A DNA stretch of 47,234 bases from Pseudomonadota bacterium (GTDB taxonomy: Bacteria > Pseudomonadota > Gammaproteobacteria > JAKAQQ01). Of the stretch, positions 76-10,613 are shown piece after piece. The stretch spans positions 1-47,234 of the forward strand of contig JAJZYM010000013.1 of NCBI GenBank assembly GCA_021798115.1. The letters run 5' to 3'. The translations under genes and the position numbers were made by a program. Positions within the stretch are counted from its first letter, which is position 1; every line of letters starts with the position of its first letter. The notes under the pieces were generated by a model that was not told where the DNA came from, made no database searches, and saw only the letters and a list, made by a program, of their open reading frames with translations.

Positions 76-2466
76 TCAGACCGTCCGACGGCGCCGTACG
101 ACGGCGGCCGCGGCCAGGAGGGCGAGGAGCAGAAGCCCGAGGGGGCTCAGGGCGCCTCCGCCCGAGGACGAGCTTGGGGCCGGGGTGACCGGCGCCGGAA
201 AGACCACCGCCTCGATCGTCGCCGGCTCCGGGTTCATGATTCCGTTCTCGTCCGGGCAATTCACCGTGATCATCTCGGGCTCGACGGTCGTCGACGTGAA
301 CGTGATGTTCACACTCGATCCCGTGGCCGTCTGGCCGTTGTACGTCCATTCACAGGACGACGCCTTGGCCGGGGTGGTGCCCCCCGTCACGGCGGCCGTC
401 AGGGTCACGGGCTTGCCGATGTCAAAGCCGTAGTCGGTCACGCTCTCACCATTCGTGACTGTCGTCGCGGCAGTCCCTCCTCCCGCCGGGACCGAGACGG
501 CGACCGTCGGGAACTGGTAGTCAAGACCTTGGGGAGCCGTGAGGGCCGCGTACCCCTGCGCCAGGCCCGCCCCCGCGCTGTCGGCACTGTAGCCGAGAGG
601 GTTCCCGAACGAACACTGGAATCCCGTGGGGTTGTTGGCCGGGATGGGGTTCCCCGTGATGAGTGAGCTCGACGCCGTCGACTCGAGCGCGCCCGCGTAG
701 AAGGACGCGGTCTTGCCCGGCTCAGCCGACATGAGATCGGCCACGAGCGCTCCCACGTTCGGGGCCGTCGCCGAAGTCCCGCAGAAAGCCACCCCTCCGT
801 TCGGAAGGAACAGGCCGGAGAATCCTCCGGCTCCGCTCGTCTCGACGCCGTCGATGCCCGTGATCGCGGGCTCCGATTCCTCACCCGTGGCCCCGGCGTT
901 CCCGTAGAGGAACGGTCCGAGCGCGCTGTAGCCCTCGAGGGTCACCGCAAGCGGATTCTCCGAGTCGACCTCAGCGGCGGCCGTCGCAAGCACCCCGGGG
1001 ACGGCCGTCTCACCGTCGGAGGTGGAGCCGTTCGTGTACATCGGCGTCAGAGCGTTGTTGCTCACGGTGCCGAAGAGGACGGCGCCGTCGCCGTTGCCGA
1101 TGAGTTTGAGCGAGGGGACCGGCGAGGCGGTGCAGCCCCCGGTGCACGCTATCACGAGATTGTCGGTCACGAAAGAGGCGGAGGAATTGGGAACGGTGTA
1201 GAAGAAATAGGACGCCGGTCGACCGTCCCCCGTCGTGTCGTTGCTCAGCGAAAAGGCCCCTCCGCTCGCGAGGACGTTCCCCGAGCCATCAAGGAGATAG
1301 AGTTCGTACTGGGTCGTGGGGGCGCTCGTCGTCGAGGGCGGATCGTTCCACTCGAGGATCGGGAAGAACGTGTAGCCCGGGAAGAGAATGACCGGAAGCT
1401 CATTGGTCACGCTGTAGGTGCTGAGCGTGGCGCCGAACGCGCTGGTCACCCCGCCAAAATCCATGCACCCGCTCGCACCCGTGACCGAGCTCGGGCATGT
1501 CGTGCTCGCGTAGGACGCCTGGAGATAATCTTGAGAATCGTTCCCAGCGGCGCTCAGAAAGGCGACGTTGGGATTGCCGCTCACGATCTGGTAAACCGCG
1601 TTGGCAAAGCTCCCGCTCGTGTTCACCCCACGGGTGAACATGTCGGTGCCGGGGAACCCGAGATCGTCGAGGACGACGTTCGCTCCCCATTGGACGAAGG
1701 CCTGGTAGCAGGTCACGAAGTCAACGTCCGTCTGCGGGCCGCAGAACCCGAGTTGGGCCTGGGGGGCCACCGCGTGCACCACCTCGAGAAGCGCCGTCCC
1801 CTCCGCCGGATCGCCGGGCGTCGGTTGTGTTTCCGTGCTCAGGAATTGCTGGACCTGGAAAATGTTGGTGGGAAGATAGCCCGCTTGCTGCGAGGCGGCG
1901 TCGCCCGAATCATCATCCGAGATCACACCGACCTTGATCCCCTGGCCCTCGGCGCCCGCCGACTTGAGAAGATCGCCCTGGAGCGCCACGAGACCCGTCG
2001 CGTCGATCGGAAGACCGCTCGGAACGGAGCTGCTGCTCTGTTGGGGGACCGCGCCCGCCCGGTGCGGAACGTAAGGCGGCTGGACCCTGGCGTAGACGGG
2101 AACACTCACCCGCCCGACACCGGGGAGGGCCGCAAGACTCTCGAGCGAGCCCACCGGAACCCAGGCCTGCACAAGGTGCATGAGAGGAGACACGCGGATC
2201 CCCACTGCCCCGAGCGAGGCGATCTCACCCACCGGAGGAAGAGCACCCGAGCCGAGCGTCGGGCGAATCACAACCTGGACGCGTCCGACCTGATCGGCCC
2301 GCGGGGCAAGGGGGTCGCGAACCGCGGCCTTCGAAAACGCCGGAAGCGCCTGGAGCCTTCCGTGCACCAAGGCCTCCAGGCGGGGGCCGAGAACCCCTGC
2401 CCGCACCCCGCCCGCGAGGACAAGGAAAAGCGCGGGAAGGGAGAACGACATGATTTTTCTCATCAT
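76..2466 (-). CDS. Secreted S8 (subtilisin-like) serine peptidase with pro-region and C-terminal sorting/anchor tail
   Basis: 796 aa. A signal peptide covers about residues 1-23 (LFLVLAGGVRAG). A pro-region at about 24-130 is paralogous to the small protein encoded just upstream. The S8 core starts near 170. Candidate catalytic Asp lies in GVISDDDSGD (184-186), the oxyanion region is SAAGN (305-309) and the nucleophile is Ser565 in GTSATAP. The usual catalytic HGT reads EGT (222-224), with a His at 231 in the following helix; this resembles the S8 subgroup with an EG...VHDVAP-type sequence. The C-terminus (765-796) is Ser/Gly-rich, then GGALSPLG, a hydrophobic stretch and RRRR, like a GlyGly-CTERM or related sorting signal. 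An AGGAG ribosome site 10 nt before the ATG overlaps the stop codon of the upstream gene, so the two are probably translationally coupled. The substrate is unknown. Confidence 0.85.
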   Translation of the reverse strand: MMRKIMSFSLPALFLVLAGGVRAGVLGPRLEALVHGRLQALPAFSKAAVRDPLAPRADQVGRVQVVIRPTLGSGALPPVGEIASLGAVGIRVSPLMHLVQAWVPVGSLESLAALPGVGRVSVPVYARVQPPYVPHRAGAVPQQSSSSVPSGLPIDATGLVALQGDLLKSAGAEGQGIKVGVISDDDSGDAASQQAGYLPTNIFQVQQFLSTETQPTPGDPAEGTALLEVVHAVAPQAQLGFCGPQTDVDFVTCYQAFVQWGANVVLDDLGFPGTDMFTRGVNTSGSFANAVYQIVSGNPNVAFLSAAGNDSQDYLQASYASTTCPSSVTGASGCMDFGGVTSAFGATLSTYSVTNELPVILFPGYTFFPILEWNDPPSTTSAPTTQYELYLLDGSGNVLASGGAFSLSNDTTGDGRPASYFFYTVPNSSASFVTDNLVIACTGGCTASPVPSLKLIGNGDGAVLFGTVSNNALTPMYTNGSTSDGETAVPGVLATAAAEVDSENPLAVTLEGYSALGPFLYGNAGATGEESEPAITGIDGVETSGAGGFSGLFLPNGGVAFCGTSATAPNVGALVADLMSAEPGKTASFYAGALESTASSSLITGNPIPANNPTGFQCSFGNPLGYSADSAGAGLAQGYAALTAPQGLDYQFPTVAVSVPAGGGTAATTVTNGESVTDYGFDIGKPVTLTAAVTGGTTPAKASSCEWTYNGQTATGSSVNITFTSTTVEPEMITVNCPDENGIMNPEPATIEAVVFPAPVTPAPSSSSGGGALSPLGLLLLALLAAAAVVRRRRTV

Positions 2467-2479
2467 GACACGATGTCTC

Positions 2480-3052
2480 CTACACAGTTGAGAGGAATTG
2501 GGTGCAGGTTATTGTGGGCCGCGGCAGGACGCCGTGGCTCTTTCTGCGGTGCACCGCCGCAAAAAGCGAGAAAACGAAGAGCATTCCGAGACCCCCTGGA
2601 GCCAAGGCTCCCCTGTCCGGGGTTGTGGTTCGGACCGCGGGAGGAGTGTGGGTGGGGGAGGCCTTGACCACAGCGTAGCGGGGAATCCCGACGTAACCCA
2701 CCCCCGGAAGGGAAGCGACGGCTGTGAGGGCCTTGACCGGCACCCAGGCCTGAATCACGTCCATGAGACGCACGACCCGCACACGCCGTGCACCGAGGGC
2801 CACGAGTGTGTTCTTCGCCGGGAGGGGCGCCTGCGGCCGAAGAGGCCGGATCACGACCTCGACGCGGCCGGCGGCATCGATCCGCGGCGCGAAGGGCGAG
2901 AGGGGCCTCTGCCCCGCCGCCCCCGATGGGACACCGTGCTCGACCAAGGCGCGGAGAGCCGGCGCGAGCACCCCGGCCGAGGCGGGAGACAGCGACACGA
3001 ATCCGAGCGCCGCCACGAGAACGCCGACGGCACCGGTGCCGAGCGGCAGCAT
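2480..3052 (-). CDS. Small secreted protein: stand-alone paralog of the peptidase pro-region with a C-terminal membrane tail
   Basis: 190 aa from ATG 3052. A signal-like segment ends near 26 (LSPASAG). Residues 27-132 align with residues 24-130 of the downstream peptidase; shared features include AGVL.P.L.ALV, GRV.VVIRP, QAWVPV and SLPGVG. There is no peptidase domain. The end carries GALAPGGLG, a hydrophobic stretch and HRRK, like the peptidase tail, but then 19 more residues. An alternative TTG start at 3088 has a better ribosome site (GGGGAG, 7-nt spacing) and would add 12 residues; ATG 3052 has only GAGG at 1-nt spacing. The stop codon lies inside the peptidase's ribosome site. I infer a pro-peptide, chaperone or inhibitor partner of the peptidase. 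No known family was recognised with certainty. Confidence 0.75.
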   Translation of the reverse strand: MLPLGTGAVGVLVAALGFVSLSPASAGVLAPALRALVEHGVPSGAAGQRPLSPFAPRIDAAGRVEVVIRPLRPQAPLPAKNTLVALGARRVRVVRLMDVIQAWVPVKALTAVASLPGVGYVGIPRYAVVKASPTHTPPAVRTTTPDRGALAPGGLGMLFVFSLFAAVHRRKSHGVLPRPTITCTQFLSTV

Positions 3053-3125
3053 CCCTCTTTCGGCAAACACCGCTGCTGGCAGGCGCAAGAAAACTCTCCC
3101 CGCAGTCCTACATGGTCCCAAGTGA

Positions 3126-3221: not shown

Positions 3222-4466
3222 TCACCCGGAAGTCTCCCCATTGCGGTGCCAGAGGAAGGCTCCGGCGTAGACAAGAACCGTGGCGAGCTCCGCTCCGTAG
3301 AGGGCGGCCACAGCCCCCGTCGATCCGTCGCGGGGAATGAGGACGAGACTGAAGACGACGCCGGCGGCGGCTCCCGCCCCAGCCGCAACCGCGACGAGAC
3401 GCATCCGTCCCCGCGCCGCCGCGAGGACATGGCTCGTATTACGCAGGACCTGAAAAAGCGGCAGGAGCGCCAAAAGACCGAGGAGACGGGCGGCGCCCGC
3501 AAAGCCGGTTCCCAACACCAGCGGGACAAGGGGTGCGAGCACGAAACGTAGACCCACGCCGGCCAGAACCGCCGTGCCGAGAAGCGCCGCAAGGAGACGC
3601 CGAAGACGCCGCCTGTCGCCTCCCGACCGGTAAAGACGGGGCCACAGGGCTTCCTGAAGCGCGAGGAGAGGCAACACCACGACATCGACGGCCCGCTGCG
3701 CGACGTTGAGACGGGCCACGTCGCCAAAGCCGCTGTAGGCAAGGACGGGCTTGTTGAACTCGTTTTGCAGACGGTGACCGAAGGATCCCGCGGCAAAAGG
3801 CCAGCTCTGACGCGCGAGCCCCCAAGGGCTCATCCCGCCACGCCGCGGTCGCGGGCGGAGGACGAGGAGCCCGAGGACACCGGCATAGCCGATCCCGGCA
3901 ACACCGTAGAAGATCATCCAGAGTGCGAGACGGTGCGCTCCGAGCCAGACGGCAAGAGCGACGAGGACGAGAAGCCGTGTCCAGACGAGACCGGCCTGGG
4001 CGATACCGTAACGACCGAGGCGCCCGCGCGCCTGCTCGCCACGGGCGAGGAGCTCGACGAGTGAGGAGGAGGCGACCTCGGCGGCCAGAAGGAACAGGCC
4101 CGCGCGGAGCGGGAAGGGCGGAGGAAGGGCGAAGAAGAGGGCCACCCCTCCGAGCGGCACGACGAAACAAAGCGTCCGCCACCAAAGACCGAGGGCGGCC
4201 GCCCGCAACCCCGCCCGACCCCCCGGCGTGCGGCTCTCCTCACGCAGGACGATGCCGGCCGCTCCGAGACCCACCAGCGGCATGAGAAACCCCGCGACGG
4301 CGAGCACGGTCACGAAGCGCCCGTAGGACGAAGGGCCGAGGACGCGGGCGAGAAGAAGGACGACCGCCGCCTGGGCGAGGGCGCGTCCGCCGATCCCCCC
4401 GAACCCCCGGAGCGAAGCCTCGAAGTAGGACCGCAACCCGTCCCTCCCGACGTCCGTCCCGCTCAC
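3222..4466 (-). CDS. Oligosaccharide/polysaccharide flippase-like membrane protein (MOP superfamily)
   Basis: 414 aa, strongly hydrophobic, with about 12 candidate membrane helices. The N-terminal pattern GGRALAQAAVVLLLARVLGPSSYG followed by a glycine-rich helix is typical of Wzx/RfbX-type flippases, which move lipid-linked sugars across the inner membrane. The start is GTG 4466, 30 bp after the acetoacetyl-CoA synthetase stop; no good ribosome site precedes it, so the true start could be slightly different. No other polysaccharide gene is adjacent; the nearest glycosyltransferase is 27 kb away. The substrate cannot be inferred. Confidence 0.75.
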   Translation of the reverse strand: MSGTDVGRDGLRSYFEASLRGFGGIGGRALAQAAVVLLLARVLGPSSYGRFVTVLAVAGFLMPLVGLGAAGIVLREESRTPGGRAGLRAAALGLWWRTLCFVVPLGGVALFFALPPPFPLRAGLFLLAAEVASSSLVELLARGEQARGRLGRYGIAQAGLVWTRLLVLVALAVWLGAHRLALWMIFYGVAGIGYAGVLGLLVLRPRPRRGGMSPWGLARQSWPFAAGSFGHRLQNEFNKPVLAYSGFGDVARLNVAQRAVDVVVLPLLALQEALWPRLYRSGGDRRRLRRLLAALLGTAVLAGVGLRFVLAPLVPLVLGTGFAGAARLLGLLALLPLFQVLRNTSHVLAAARGRMRLVAVAAGAGAAAGVVFSLVLIPRDGSTGAVAALYGAELATVLVYAGAFLWHRNGETSG

Positions 4467-4496
4467 GGGCGCGTCCGGCGGCGGTTCATGCCCGTC

Positions 4497-6440
4497 TCAC
4501 CCGCGCTTCTTCGAACGCAGTTCGTCGAGGCCGCGGAACAAATCGAGGACCTCGGGATTCGCGAGGGCTCCGGTGTTCGCGGGCGTGCCACCGGCCAAGA
4601 CCTCGCGGACGGCGATTTCGCTGATCTTGCCGCTGCGTGTGCGTGGGAAGTCTGCCACCGCCAGGATGCGATCGGGCACGTGACGCGGCGAGGCCTGTTC
4701 GCGCAGCCTGCGGCGGATCGCCTGACGCAGGTTCTCGTCGAGGACGCAACCCTCGCGCAAACGCAGAAAGAGCACGATGCGCTCGTCGCCCTCCACCCGT
4801 CGGCCGACCGCGAGGGCCTCGAGCACCTCGGGGAACACCTCGACCTGGCGGTAGATTTCCGCCGTGCCGATGCGCACTCCCCCGGGGTTGAGCACCGCGT
4901 CCGAGCGGCCGCTCAGGATGAGTCCGCCCGAGGCGGTGATCTCTGCCCGGTCGCCGTGACGCCAGACGCCGGGGTAGGTCGAGAAGTAGGTCTCGCGGTA
5001 CCGCGCTCCGTCAGGATCGTTCCAAAAGCCGACCGGCATCGCCAGAAACGGACGGGTCACGACGAGTTCACCCGGCCGGCCGCGCAGGGGACGGCCCGCC
5101 TCGTCGAACACATCGACGGGCATCCCGAGCCCCCGGCACTGGATCTCTCCGCGATGGACGGGCAGGAGCGGATGCCCCAAGACGAAACAGGAAACGATGT
5201 CGGTTCCGCCGGAGATGGAGGCGAGGTGAAGATGCGGACCAAGCGCGTCGTGCACGTAGTCGAACTGTTCGGGAAGAAGGGGCGAACCGGTCGAAAGAAT
5301 CGTGCGTGTCCCGTCGAAGGCGCCGCTCGCGCGGGCGTCGACCCCCGCCTTCTCGAGTCCGGAAAGGTACTTGGCGCTCGTTCCGAAGTGCGCAACCCCC
5401 TCCTCGCGTGCCAGGGAGAGCAGCGCCTCCGGGCCGGGATGAAAGGGCGAACCTTCGTAGAGCACGACGACCGCTCGGGAGGCCAGTGCCGAAACGAGCC
5501 AGTTCCACATCATCCAGCCGATGGTGGTGTAGTAGAAGAGGCGTTCGCCCGCCCGGAGATCGACGTGAAGACGGTGCTCCTTGAGATGCTGGAGGAGAAC
5601 CCGGCCGTGGGCGTGGACGATCCCTTTGGGTCGTCCGGTCGTCCCCGAAGAGAAAAGGACGTAGAGGGGATGATCGAAGGGAACCGGCGTGAAGGCGGGC
5701 GGCCCCTCCGCGGGCGGAGGCGGCGGGCGCATCCCCGCGGGAGGCGACTCCTCGGGATGGAGATAGGGCACAAGCACCGTCGGGCAGTCGAGACGACGGG
5801 CGATCTCGACGACACGTTCGCGCACGTCGTACCGACGGCCCTGGTGGCGGTAACCGTCGGCGGCAATGAGAAGGCGGGGCGCCACCTGCCCGAAGCGGTC
5901 GAGCACCCCCTCGACACCGAAATCGCTCGAGGCCCCCGCCCAGACGAGGCCTCCGGCGGCCGCGGCCAGCATGGCGGCGAGGGTTTCGGGCAGATTGGGC
6001 AGATAGCCCGCGACGCGCTCCCCGCGGGTCAGCCCGAGAGCACGGTAGAGGTCCTGCCAGCCGGCGACGTGACGGCGCAGATCCCCCCGCGTCCAGGCGC
6101 GGCGCCCGCCGCCCTCGTCGCGAAAGACAAGGGCAGGATCCTCGTCCGCTCCGGGTTCGAGAAGCGCCCGCGCGTAGTTGAGCTCAGCCCCGACGAACCA
6201 GCGCGCGCCCGGCATCGCGTCGGGGTCCTCGAGAACCCGCCGGGGCGGGGTCGCGAAAGATACGGCAAAGAACGAGGCGGCCTCGGCCCAGAACATCTCG
6301 GGCCGTTCGACCGACCAGCTCCAGAGAGCGTGGGGATCGGAGCCGGGCGTGAGACCCCGGGCGCGAAGACGATGGGCGAAGCGCGTGATCTCGGCGCGCG
6401 CAGCCTCGTCCGGCGACGGCGTCCAGACGACCGGATTCAC
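4497..6440 (-). CDS. Acetoacetyl-CoA synthetase (acetoacetate-CoA ligase)
   Basis: 647 aa, the usual length for AacS. It belongs to the ANL adenylate-forming family: the ATP-binding signature SSGTTGRPKGI lies near the middle, and a C-terminal TRSGKISE segment carries the catalytic Lys of the small domain. The N-terminal region (FWAEAASFFAV) and the overall layout match acetoacetate-CoA ligases more than acetyl-CoA synthetases. It would activate acetoacetate (or a short 3-oxo or branched acid) to its CoA ester in the cytoplasm. The GTG start overlaps the ETF-alpha stop by 4 bp (GTGA), so it is the last gene of the SDR/ETF operon. The exact substrate is inferred from family resemblance. Confidence 0.87.
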   Translation of the reverse strand: MNPVVWTPSPDEAARAEITRFAHRLRARGLTPGSDPHALWSWSVERPEMFWAEAASFFAVSFATPPRRVLEDPDAMPGARWFVGAELNYARALLEPGADEDPALVFRDEGGGRRAWTRGDLRRHVAGWQDLYRALGLTRGERVAGYLPNLPETLAAMLAAAAGGLVWAGASSDFGVEGVLDRFGQVAPRLLIAADGYRHQGRRYDVRERVVEIARRLDCPTVLVPYLHPEESPPAGMRPPPPPAEGPPAFTPVPFDHPLYVLFSSGTTGRPKGIVHAHGRVLLQHLKEHRLHVDLRAGERLFYYTTIGWMMWNWLVSALASRAVVVLYEGSPFHPGPEALLSLAREEGVAHFGTSAKYLSGLEKAGVDARASGAFDGTRTILSTGSPLLPEQFDYVHDALGPHLHLASISGGTDIVSCFVLGHPLLPVHRGEIQCRGLGMPVDVFDEAGRPLRGRPGELVVTRPFLAMPVGFWNDPDGARYRETYFSTYPGVWRHGDRAEITASGGLILSGRSDAVLNPGGVRIGTAEIYRQVEVFPEVLEALAVGRRVEGDERIVLFLRLREGCVLDENLRQAIRRRLREQASPRHVPDRILAVADFPRTRSGKISEIAVREVLAGGTPANTGALANPEVLDLFRGLDELRSKKRG

Positions 6441-7405
6441 GACCCGACGCCAGCCCGTTCGAGCGCCTTCTCGAGCGCCGGGACGATCGTGAAGAGGTCA
6501 CCCACGAGCCCCACGTCGGCAATCTTGAAAATCGGCGCTTCGGGATCTTTGTTGATCGCGGCGATGACACGCGCATCCTTGATCCCGGTCACGTGCTGGA
6601 TGGCCCCCGAGATGCCGACCGCGATGTAGAGATCCGGCGCAATGATCTTGCCGGTCTGCCCGACCTGGAGGTCGTTGGGCGCGTAACCCGCGTCGACCGC
6701 AGCGCGGGACGCCCCGAGAGCCGCCCCGAGCCGGCGGGCCAGGCCCTCGAGGAGGGCAAAGTTCTCGGCGCTGCCGAGGGCGCGTCCCCCCGAAACGACC
6801 CGCTTCGCCGACTGAAGATCGGGTCGCTCGGAGGCGTGCTCCTCGAGGCCGATGTAGCGTGTCCCGGGATCGCCCGCCGGGTCGGGCACGTCGCGCACGA
6901 CGGGCGCCGCTTCCCCCGCCCTTTCGCCCGCGGCCGGCCACGACGCAAGGCGCACCGTGAGGACGAGCCGCCCGGCCTCCGGACGCGCACGCACGGTGAG
7001 CCGAACGTTGCCGGCGTAGATGAAGCGACGGAACGTGCGCGGGTCGATCACCTCGGCCACCTCGGTGATCATGACACCCGAGACGAGCGCGGCGAGGCGC
7101 GGCATCACGTCGCGCCCGAGGCTGGAGGCCGGCATGAGCACCGCCTCGTAGTCCGCGGCGAGGCGGGCGAGCACCGGCGCCCAGACGGTGGCGAGGGGAG
7201 GATCGAAACCCGCCTGCGGGCCGAGGCGCACGCGGGCCACGCCGGCGAGGCGGCGCCCTTCCTCGGCGGCGGCTTCCGCCGCGCGGCCGAGAACGGCGAG
7301 ATCGGCCCCCCCGGGGTCGAGCGCGGCCGCGCAGCTGAGAGCCTTGCGGGTGCCCTCGGTCAGGCGGTCGTGGTGGCGTTCGGCGATGACGAGGATGCGC
7401 GACAT
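6437..7405 (-). CDS. etfA: Electron transfer flavoprotein alpha subunit
   Basis: 322 aa. The N-terminal half begins MSRILVIAERHH. The C-terminal FAD-binding domain is well conserved: VVSGGRALGS, GASRAAVDAGY, QVGQTGKIIAPDLYIAVG and the GISGAIQHVTGIK segment. It binds FAD and, with ETF-beta, carries electrons from acyl-CoA dehydrogenases to ETF-QO. ATG 7405 was chosen because it lies 2 bp after the ETF-beta stop. It is part of the minus-strand operon SDR - ETF-QO - ETF-beta - ETF-alpha - AacS. Confidence 0.95.
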   Translation of the reverse strand: MSRILVIAERHHDRLTEGTRKALSCAAALDPGGADLAVLGRAAEAAAEEGRRLAGVARVRLGPQAGFDPPLATVWAPVLARLAADYEAVLMPASSLGRDVMPRLAALVSGVMITEVAEVIDPRTFRRFIYAGNVRLTVRARPEAGRLVLTVRLASWPAAGERAGEAAPVVRDVPDPAGDPGTRYIGLEEHASERPDLQSAKRVVSGGRALGSAENFALLEGLARRLGAALGASRAAVDAGYAPNDLQVGQTGKIIAPDLYIAVGISGAIQHVTGIKDARVIAAINKDPEAPIFKIADVGLVGDLFTIVPALEKALERAGVGS

Positions 7406-8214: not shown

Positions 8215-9846
8215 TCAGAGAGCAGAATAGTTCGGGCCGGAACCGCCCTCGGGCGGAACCCAGGTGATCTGCCCGTACGGATCCTTGATGTCGCAGGCTT
8301 TGCAGTGGACGCAGTTGGCGGCGTTGATTTGAAGTCGCCGTTCGTCGCCCTCCCCCACGATCTCGTAGACGCCGGCGGGACAGAATCGGGTGCAGGGATG
8401 ATCGTAGCGTGTTCGGCAATCCCCCAGGCAAAGGGCCGTGTCGGCCACGTGAAGATGCACCGGCTGGTCTTCCTCGTGGCGGGTCGCCGCGAAATAAACC
8501 GAGGCGGGCCTGTCGGCCGGCGGGAGGGTCCGCTCGCGCCGACGCGGGCGGCGGCGTCTGCGGTGGGGGACGAGGCTTTCCGCATCATCGTGCATCATCC
8601 GCAGCGTCCAGGGGCTGAGCCCCCGAGTGGCGGTTTCCCAGGCCGCGTTGAGAAGACCCGGAAGAAGCCCGGCGCGGAACCCCGGGCGGATATTGCGCAC
8701 ACGGCGGAGTTCGGCGGCCAGGGGCGAGGCGCGGAAACGGGCGTCGAACCCCTCCTCCGTCCCGCTCTCGAGATAGTGCCGAGCCGCCAGGATCCCGCAA
8801 CCGAGGGCCATGTGCACGCCCTTGATCTTCGGGACGTTGAGCGTGCCGGCCGCGTCTCCGACGAGAACCACGCCCGGAGCCTCGAGCCGCGGGAGCGCTC
8901 CCCAGCCCCCTTCGATCAGGCTGCGTGCGCCGGCCTCGAGAATTTCCCCACCTTCGAGGAGAGGACGGACGCTCGGGTGGTGCTTGAACTGCTGAAACGC
9001 CTCGAACGGCGAGAACGCGGGGTCGGCGTAATCAAGACCGACGACGAAGCCGACGTAGAGGCGGTCCTCGTCGAGGTGGTAAAGAAAGCTTCCGCCGTAC
9101 GTCCCGGCGTCGAGCGGCCAACCCACCGTGTGCTCGATCCGTCCCGGACGCACGCGGCCGGGCGGGACACGCCAGAGCTCCTTGAATCCGAGACCGTAGG
9201 ACTGCGGGCCGACCCCACGATCGAGGCCGAAACGGGCGAGGATGGTCTTGGTCAGGCTGCCGCGGCAACCCTCGGCAAGAACGACGAGTCCGGCCTCGAT
9301 CTCGACACCGGGCGTGAAGCGGGGGCCGGGCGTGCCGTCGCGACGGCGGCCAAGATCACCCACGCGCACCCCGCGCACCCGCCCCCGCCCGTCGTAGAGC
9401 ATGTCCTCGGCGGCGAAGCCGAAGAAGAGCTGGACTCCCAACTCCTCGGCCCGGGCCGCCAGAAGACGCACCACACCGGACAGCGAGACGATGACGTTGC
9501 CGCGGTTGTGCATCTGGGGTGGCGTCGGCAGGGGAATGCGCCCGCCGTATGTGAGCCAGGAAAAACGATCCGCGGCGGCCGGCACGGCGATCACCCCCGC
9601 CTCCTTGGCACGCGTGCGCCAATCGGGAAGGAGCCGCTCGAGGGCCGCGGTCTCGATCACCGCTCCCGAGAGGGTGTGGCCTCCGGCCGCGGCGGCTTTC
9701 TCGAGAACAATCACCTCGAGGTCGGGGCGTGCGGAGCGAAGCGTGAGGGCGGCGGCGAGGCCGGCCGGACCGGCGCCGACGACGAGGACGTCGCAACCGA
9801 GACGCTCAGGTCCCGGAGAAGTGCCGTCCGCGGCCGACTCGTTCAC
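8215..9846 (-). CDS. Electron transfer flavoprotein-ubiquinone oxidoreductase
   Basis: 543 aa, full length. The FAD dinucleotide motif is GAGPAGLAAAL near residue 23. The C-terminus holds the [4Fe-4S] site with FCPAGVYE and NCVHCKACDIKDP. It passes electrons from reduced ETF to ubiquinone at the cytoplasmic membrane. The GTG start overlaps the SDR stop (GTGA). Co-location with both ETF subunits supports a dedicated acyl-CoA oxidation electron chain. Confidence 0.95.
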   Translation of the reverse strand: MNESAADGTSPGPERLGCDVLVVGAGPAGLAAALTLRSARPDLEVIVLEKAAAAGGHTLSGAVIETAALERLLPDWRTRAKEAGVIAVPAAADRFSWLTYGGRIPLPTPPQMHNRGNVIVSLSGVVRLLAARAEELGVQLFFGFAAEDMLYDGRGRVRGVRVGDLGRRRDGTPGPRFTPGVEIEAGLVVLAEGCRGSLTKTILARFGLDRGVGPQSYGLGFKELWRVPPGRVRPGRIEHTVGWPLDAGTYGGSFLYHLDEDRLYVGFVVGLDYADPAFSPFEAFQQFKHHPSVRPLLEGGEILEAGARSLIEGGWGALPRLEAPGVVLVGDAAGTLNVPKIKGVHMALGCGILAARHYLESGTEEGFDARFRASPLAAELRRVRNIRPGFRAGLLPGLLNAAWETATRGLSPWTLRMMHDDAESLVPHRRRRRPRRRERTLPPADRPASVYFAATRHEEDQPVHLHVADTALCLGDCRTRYDHPCTRFCPAGVYEIVGEGDERRLQINAANCVHCKACDIKDPYGQITWVPPEGGSGPNYSAL

Positions 9847-10613
9847 TTGGGTTGGAGGCGGATCGCTCCGTCGAGGCGGAGCGTGCAGCCGTTGAGCATC
9901 GGGTTCGTCACGACGCTCTCGACCAGGGCGGCGTACTCCGCGGGCCGCCCCAACCGGGACGGGAAGGGCACCTGGGCGGAAAGCGAGGCCTGCACCTCGG
10001 GCGGCATGCCGTGCATCATCGGGGTTTCAAAAAGACCGGGGGCGATCGTGACCACGCGCACGCCCGCACGGGCGAACTCTCGGGCGAGCGGAAGGGTCAT
10101 GGAGGCCACGCCGCCCTTCGAAGCGGAGTAGGCCGCCTGGCCGATCTGCCCCTCGAAGGCCGCGACCGAGGCGGTGAACACGAGGCACCCCCGCTCGCCC
10201 TCTTCGTTGGGCGCGGCCTGGCTCATACGCGCCGCAGCGGCGCGGGCGAGGTGAAACGTCCCGAGGAGATTGACCTCGAGAACGTGACGAAAACGCGCCG
10301 AGGGCATCGGCCCTTCGCGGGCGAGGACACGCCCGGCGCCGAGGATGCCGGCACAGCTCACCGCGAGCGCCGGCGGATGACCGAAAAACCTCACCGACTC
10401 GTCGAGGGCCCGCTCCACGGCTTCGTCGTCCCGGACGTCGGTGGCAACGAAACGCACGGCGGAAGCGTGACGGCGGGCGAGCGCCGCTCCGGCCTCCTCC
10501 TGAACGTCGAGGACGACGACCTTCCCGCCCCTCGCCAGCACCCGCTCGGTGACCGCCAGACCCAGACCCGAGGCCCCTCCGCTCACGACGGCGCAAACAG
10601 CATCAAAACGCAC
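9843..10613 (-). CDS. Short-chain dehydrogenase/reductase, HSD17B10-like 3-hydroxyacyl-CoA dehydrogenase
   Basis: 256 aa. The NAD-binding motif is SGGASGLG (near 11-18), the NAG-type motif reads SCAG, and the catalytic Ser...YSASK is present (SVAAFEGQIGQAAYSASKGG). This arrangement fits type-2 3-hydroxyacyl-CoA dehydrogenases of the SDR class, which oxidise short or 2-methyl-branched 3-hydroxyacyl-CoA with NAD+. Start GTG 10613 has AGGAGG 6 nt upstream. It is the first gene of the ETF operon. A 3-hydroxybutyrate dehydrogenase role is the main alternative and would also fit the acetoacetate ligase at the other end of the operon. Confidence 0.85.
   Translation of the reverse strand: MRFDAVCAVVSGGASGLGLAVTERVLARGGKVVVLDVQEEAGAALARRHASAVRFVATDVRDDEAVERALDESVRFFGHPPALAVSCAGILGAGRVLAREGPMPSARFRHVLEVNLLGTFHLARAAAARMSQAAPNEEGERGCLVFTASVAAFEGQIGQAAYSASKGGVASMTLPLAREFARAGVRVVTIAPGLFETPMMHGMPPEVQASLSAQVPFPSRLGRPAEYAALVESVVTNPMLNGCTLRLDGAIRLQPK

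Follow-up and report, generated by a model that had tools for sequence, protein, structure and literature searches.

Subtilase propeptides and the free-standing proteins that mimic them are potent inhibitors, and such mimics are established in eukaryotes (PMC6993865). The closest described system in layout is Plasmodium SUB1-ProM, a potent and selective inhibitor of SUB1 with a predicted propeptide fold, which is encoded beside subtilases that have propeptides of their own (PMC6993865). A similar layout is found in contig JAJZYM010000013.1 of the gammaproteobacterial assembly GCA_021798115.1, of which positions 1 to 47,234 were analyzed (the window, 47,234 nucleotides): within its first 3.1 kb, on the minus strand, a small gene for a secreted pro-domain protein lies directly upstream of the gene for an S8-fold peptidase that carries its own copy of the pro-domain. 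An original prediction, made by reading the letters of the window, had proposed that this pair joins a stand-alone pro-region to a peptidase with the same pro-region and tail. We put at roughly two in three the probability that the small protein is a membrane-tethered propeptide acting in trans, which inhibits, and possibly helps to fold, the coupled peptidase during its transit through the periplasm.

SUB1-ProM differs from the window protein in its eukaryotic source and in being probably a soluble protein of the parasitophorous vacuole, and it is not described as membrane-anchored or translationally coupled (PMC6993865). The window pair, for its part, belongs to a different catalytic family and shows a plain sequence likeness between the small protein and its partner's pro-region (56 of 111 positions identical, or 50 per cent, E = 2e-22, small-protein residues 26–130 against peptidase residues 23–129), which bears out the predicted collinearity of the two reading frames. 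The MEROPS I9 inhibitors POIA1, yeast PBI2 and Arabidopsis SPI-1, together with TgMIC5, also present the subtilisin-propeptide fold in a gene of their own, but they are eukaryotic, whereas the window protein is bacterial and neither it nor 16 relatives match Pfam Inhibitor_I9. To our knowledge, none of these four is encoded beside its cognate peptidase or tethered to a membrane.

Among bacteria, the genes for a protease and a small inhibitor are adjacent and co-transcribed in SpeB–Spi, in staphopain–staphostatin and in Bacteroides Bfp/Bfi and Btp/Bti, and some of the Bacteroides inhibitors are predicted lipoproteins, as are relatives of the small protein; these proteases, however, are papain-type cysteine proteases, and the Bacteroides inhibitors are staphostatin-like rather than propeptide-like (PMC3462683). 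Aeromonas sobria encodes a separate partner, the external chaperone ORF2, for a secreted subtilase (cited in PMC9549277), but the Aeromonas enzyme has no propeptide, while in the window both partners carry one, so that the pair falls outside the class of external chaperones of propeptide-less subtilases. In Myxococcus a dedicated partner, PopD, restrains the subtilisin-like protease PopC until secretion, but PopD is not described as a propeptide homologue and is by that description set apart from the window protein (PMC6434023). Searches of the open-access literature yielded no account of a free-standing, I9-type subtilase propeptide in bacteria, membrane-tethered or otherwise; the original remark that no described system with this architecture was known holds for bacteria within that literature and gives way to the similar arrangement in Plasmodium.

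The small protein is encoded by its own gene without a catalytic domain, and its core is predicted with high confidence to take the subtilisin-propeptide fold. The structure prediction that had been suggested was carried out for both single proteins with AlphaFold2 and gave a propeptide fold for the one and a subtilisin fold for the other; the core of the small protein was modeled in blocks of predicted local distance difference test (pLDDT) values of 89–98, with low confidence in the C-terminal tail. The top Foldseek match to this model is the subtilisin propeptide 2z57_B (target TM 0.75, probability 1.00, E = 0.024), and rows 1–26 of the VIA-align list are all subtilase propeptides or pro-forms (best 3afg_B, Z = 8.6 over 80 residues at 2.6 Å), with the free-standing inhibitor POIA1 lower in the list (1v5i_B, Z = 5.7 over 69 residues). 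The Z values are middling by themselves, and it is the uniformity of the list that points to this fold. The link at the level of sequence is weak, and the fold is relied on instead, because a profile of 64 mixed free-standing and cis pro-regions matched no PDB sequence and a narrower profile of the family's small proteins, run against the whole PDB, brought only Tk-subtilisin propeptides near the top, and these weakly (E = 0.002). Neither Pfam nor NCBIfam assigns the small protein to a family, and its relatives have no plausible one in Pfam.

The two genes appear to be translationally coupled. The TAG of the small gene (2480–2482) lies inside the peptidase Shine–Dalgarno sequence TAGGAGA, an overlap already seen in the original prediction, with 13 nucleotides between the stop codon and the peptidase ATG at 2466, and short same-strand gaps or overlaps lead from small gene to peptidase in nearly all pairs. 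The predicted stop of the small gene stands, but its start at ATG 3052 probably does not: the sister genome has GTG at this position, while GGGGAGAG precedes TTG 3088 by 5 nucleotides and is conserved in the sister genome, and a start at this TTG gives a signal peptide with a charged n-region. The true extent of the gene is thus probably 2480–3088. The contig ends 75 bases past the peptidase gene.

Twenty-one of 25 free-standing proteins stop soon after a conserved Tyr (126 in the window protein), 3–6 residues past it in 19 of these tailless relatives and 8 and 11 residues past it in the other two. VIA-align sets residues 63–130 of the window protein against 5–69 of the Tk-subtilisin propeptide, placing K130 at the C-terminal (P1) residue left by autoprocessing, and the tailless relatives thus end where a cut propeptide ends, as expected of a product-like inhibitor. 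The segment expected to reach into the active-site cleft opens with Pro124 and Tyr126, each at least 90 per cent conserved over 64 cis and trans pro-domains.

The means of anchoring are predicted to differ within the family. Nearly all of the 21 proteins that stop soon after the Tyr have a lipobox-like segment, and an N-terminal lipid anchor is predicted for most relatives; the window protein, together with its nearest relatives, departs from this by running on for about 60 residues into a Gly/Pro–hydrophobic–basic tail, a predicted C-terminal membrane segment. The notion of a membrane-held propeptide therefore survives as a prediction, although its C-terminal tail is the exception among relatives that are mostly lipoproteins ending at the pro-domain. 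The likeness of this tail to that of the peptidase, also claimed at the outset, is real but modest: GALAPGGLGMLFVFSLFAAVHRRK against GALSPLGLLLLALLAAAAVVRRRR within the window pair beats 2000 of 2000 segment-wise shuffles, but against the sister species' peptidase the likeness beats only about 95 per cent of shuffles.

Public genomes were scanned with the peptidase alignment, and each open reading frame (ORF) of the resulting loci was then searched with a pro-domain profile; about 18 of the 80 loci contain a free-standing pro-domain. The survey for adjacent pairs that had been suggested turned up pairs in several bacterial phyla. The carriers are Gammaproteobacteria (Natronospirales and Rhodanobacteraceae among them), one deltaproteobacterium, Rokubacteria, Tectomicrobia and one Methanoregula; in sister genera the small pro-domain gene, encoding a predicted lipoprotein, is directly upstream of a related peptidase. 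A class survey added two adjacent pairs in another family; neither there nor in a search of six further genomes did any free-standing pro-domain of a bacterium turn up at a distance from such a peptidase. The domain is rare, being present in 2 of 398 genomes of a phylum-wide sample, the window's own included. Three further loci (L098, L115 and possibly G777 C5) were left uncounted as free-standing genes, as they resemble broken peptidase frames or assembly gaps. Six loci of sister genera (L033, L034, L037, L038, L040 and L043) encode a third kind of related peptidase, which has an insert containing Cys in its pro-region; a free-standing partner was not seen within these loci as far as examined.

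The archaeal evidence is thin. One clear adjacent pair is present in Methanoregula (L099, pro-domain protein at 4978–5688, just upstream of the peptidase), whereas a second archaeal protein (L181, 4063–4740), the sole orphan pro-domain seen, had no peptidase within the 10 kb examined, and a third locus (L182) is doubtful. Both L099 and L181 proteins have a Ser/Thr/Pro linker and a C-terminal hydrophobic–basic tail, in which they resemble the window protein. An in-frame stop at 6568–6570 splits the Methanoregula peptidase in the assembly, and could reflect an error, decay or readthrough.

Binding, inhibition, envelope location and release timing are all steps that we infer, and may be pictured as follows. 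The peptidase would be exported with its cis pro-domain, which presumably folds the catalytic domain and is first to inhibit it in the periplasm, while the small protein would be held in the envelope by its C-terminal segment or, in most relatives, by its lipid anchor. The trans pro-domain may pack against the catalytic domain in the manner of its cis counterpart, with its C-terminal segment in the non-primed subsites, and this anchored second pro-domain would capture the matured enzyme and keep it inactive inside the envelope until export. Release to the cell surface would probably proceed through type II secretion and rhombosortase processing, as for Vibrio cholerae VesB, which is delivered to the surface in this way and loses its propeptide there (PMC6219818). 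The window genome has a rhombosortase (125 bits, cut-off 84) and the type II secretin GspD; a rhombosortase was found in all 14 genomes tested, above the cut-off in 13, and the best match of the peptidase tail is to a related sorting tag (18.7 bits, cut-off 20.5).

Two features favor inhibition over other roles: the peptidase retains a pro-domain of its own, and the C-terminus of most free-standing relatives falls at P1. The main rival is that the small protein is chiefly an intermolecular folding chaperone with inhibition secondary, as subtilase propeptides are folding catalysts, an external chaperone is known for a bacterial subtilase (the Aeromonas sobria case cited in PMC9549277), and the small gene comes first in the likely message. 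This is the less likely reading, and on balance an improbable one, given an intact cis pro-domain, where the Aeromonas enzyme has none, and given the many family members that manage without a partner; a folding role may still accompany inhibition. Another possibility is that the small protein serves as a decoy substrate, or as a membrane receptor or localizer keeping the peptidase in the envelope. The two different anchoring solutions, lipobox and C-terminal segment, would suit this, and pro-domain binding would indeed hold the enzyme at the membrane, but the peptidase's own tail and the rhombosortase already account for localization and a free C-terminus at P1 suits inhibition better, which makes this distinctly unlikely.

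Several observations weigh against a coupled, trans-acting inhibitor. For many peptidases of this family the DNA examined contains no free-standing partner. The window protein itself runs some 60 residues past P1 and cannot be a simple product-like inhibitor unless it is cut or binds with the chain running through. Coupling is not universal, as a second, diverged set in the same genome (contig C6, locus L005) has its pro-domain lipoprotein at 4350–4793 and its peptidase at 8316–10301, about 3.5 kb apart; the lipoprotein gene is near what we take, from reading the translations, to be lptD and a surA-like gene. Nor are the genes coupled in Rhodanobacteraceae, where that for the lipoprotein (L048 8357–8830, L107 1567–2040) runs convergently to the peptidase gene rather than lying upstream.

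The arrangement has apparently arisen repeatedly among distantly related bacteria. A tree of 68 pro-domains over 111 columns, in which many forks are unsure, requires seven changes between the free-standing and fused states; well-supported branches force at least six of these, and the count stays at seven when the eight longest rows are omitted. A single clade of all free-standing proteins was rejected by the approximately unbiased test (p-AU 1e-42). The free-standing proteins of Rokubacteria, the deltaproteobacterium and Tectomicrobia each lie closest to the pro-domain of the neighboring peptidase or of close kin; repeated duplication of the neighbor's pro-region explains this, although gene conversion between neighbors could imitate the pattern.

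Nor is the small gene a decaying copy, given its substitution rates and the constancy of its neighbor. Between window and sister genome the ratio of nonsynonymous to synonymous substitution (dN/dS, Nei–Gojobori method) comes to 0.35 in the small gene against 0.24 in the peptidase gene, and eight small-gene comparisons give about 0.2–0.45, indicating purifying selection; the gene has a peptidase of this kind next to it in sister genera, in other Gammaproteobacteria, in the deltaproteobacterium, Rokubacteria and Tectomicrobia. A degraded copy without a conserved reading frame, named in the original prediction as the finding that would speak against it, is thus not what the relatives show. That the small gene is a functionless remnant, left when a peptidase gene was duplicated and one copy shed its catalytic domain, is very improbable: the common pro-region and tail suggest origin by internal deletion, and an ORF at L053 6156–6662, between lipoprotein and peptidase, resembles a decaying extra copy of the peptidase N-terminus, but purifying selection, frames intact in several phyla with C-termini at one position, and recurrent independent origins all stand against it.

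The peptidase model has the subtilisin fold (VIA-align Z of about 30 over 255 residues), and the Pfam match to PF00082 is above cut-off (E = 4.7e-5). An alignment of 61 relatives from many phyla does not show the S8 Asp–His–Ser triad: Glu takes the His position in 61 of 61, and the Asp position is Ser183, with Asp at 184 in 51 of 61. S53 sedolisins carry Glu and Asp four residues apart on a single helix, with Asp as the oxyanion residue; this arrangement is likewise absent, as residue 226 is Met, Leu or Ile and the oxyanion residue is Asn309, not Asp, in all 61. By their position E222 and D268 would be catalytic, and the family may possibly be a Ser–Glu–Asp subtilase unlike S53.

Table 1. Features of the pair in window coordinates; small-protein residues are counted from ATG 3052.
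Feature	Coordinates	Strand	Remarks
Small gene, free-standing secreted pro-domain protein (probable extent)	2480..3088	-	190 aa from ATG 3052, 202 aa from TTG 3088
Shine–Dalgarno GGGGAGAG	3094..3101	-	before TTG 3088
Pro-domain core, predicted subtilisin-propeptide fold	2663..2869	-	residues 62–130
K130, equivalent of Tk-subtilisin propeptide residue 69 (P1)	2663..2665	-	VIA-align
C-terminal Gly/Pro–hydrophobic–basic tail, predicted membrane anchor	2537..2605	-	residues 150–172; sequence, likeness to peptidase tail; model of low confidence
Peptidase ribosome site AGGAGA	2476..2481	-	overlaps small-gene TAG
S8-fold peptidase	76..2466	-	796 aa; AlphaFold2 model, VIA-align, PF00082
Peptidase cis pro-region	2077..2397	-	residues 24–130; alignment to small protein, model
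Peptidase catalytic domain	538..2016	-	residues 151–643
E222, Glu at subtilase catalytic His position	1801..1803	-	EGT for HGT; invariant, 61/61
D268, candidate triad acid	1663..1665	-	invariant Asp, 61/61
N309, oxyanion Asn	1540..1542	-	AAGN; invariant, 61/61
S565, catalytic Ser	772..774	-	GTSA; invariant, 61/61
GlyGly-CTERM-like tail	79..171	-	GGGALSPLG–hydrophobic–RRRR; below threshold of IPTL/MYXO-CTERM models

The widest reading of these data, for which the odds fall a little short of even, is that the small proteins form the first prokaryotic class of dedicated, membrane-tethered propeptide regulators, with at least six origins from neighbors' pro-regions in several bacterial phyla and probably methanogens, guarding an uncharacterized Glu-for-His subtilase family. 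With Glu where the S8 fold has its catalytic His, the partner peptidases are, as far as could be found, also an unstudied catalytic variant. Should the proposed role hold, the cis pro-domain of an enzyme could be set directly against its trans counterpart, and the long-standing question whether a propeptide is retained for folding or for inhibition would become testable. If the proposed role is true, bacteria would have evolved a eukaryote-like trick repeatedly and added to it a membrane tether, making of the propeptide an anchored safety catch for a secreted peptidase.
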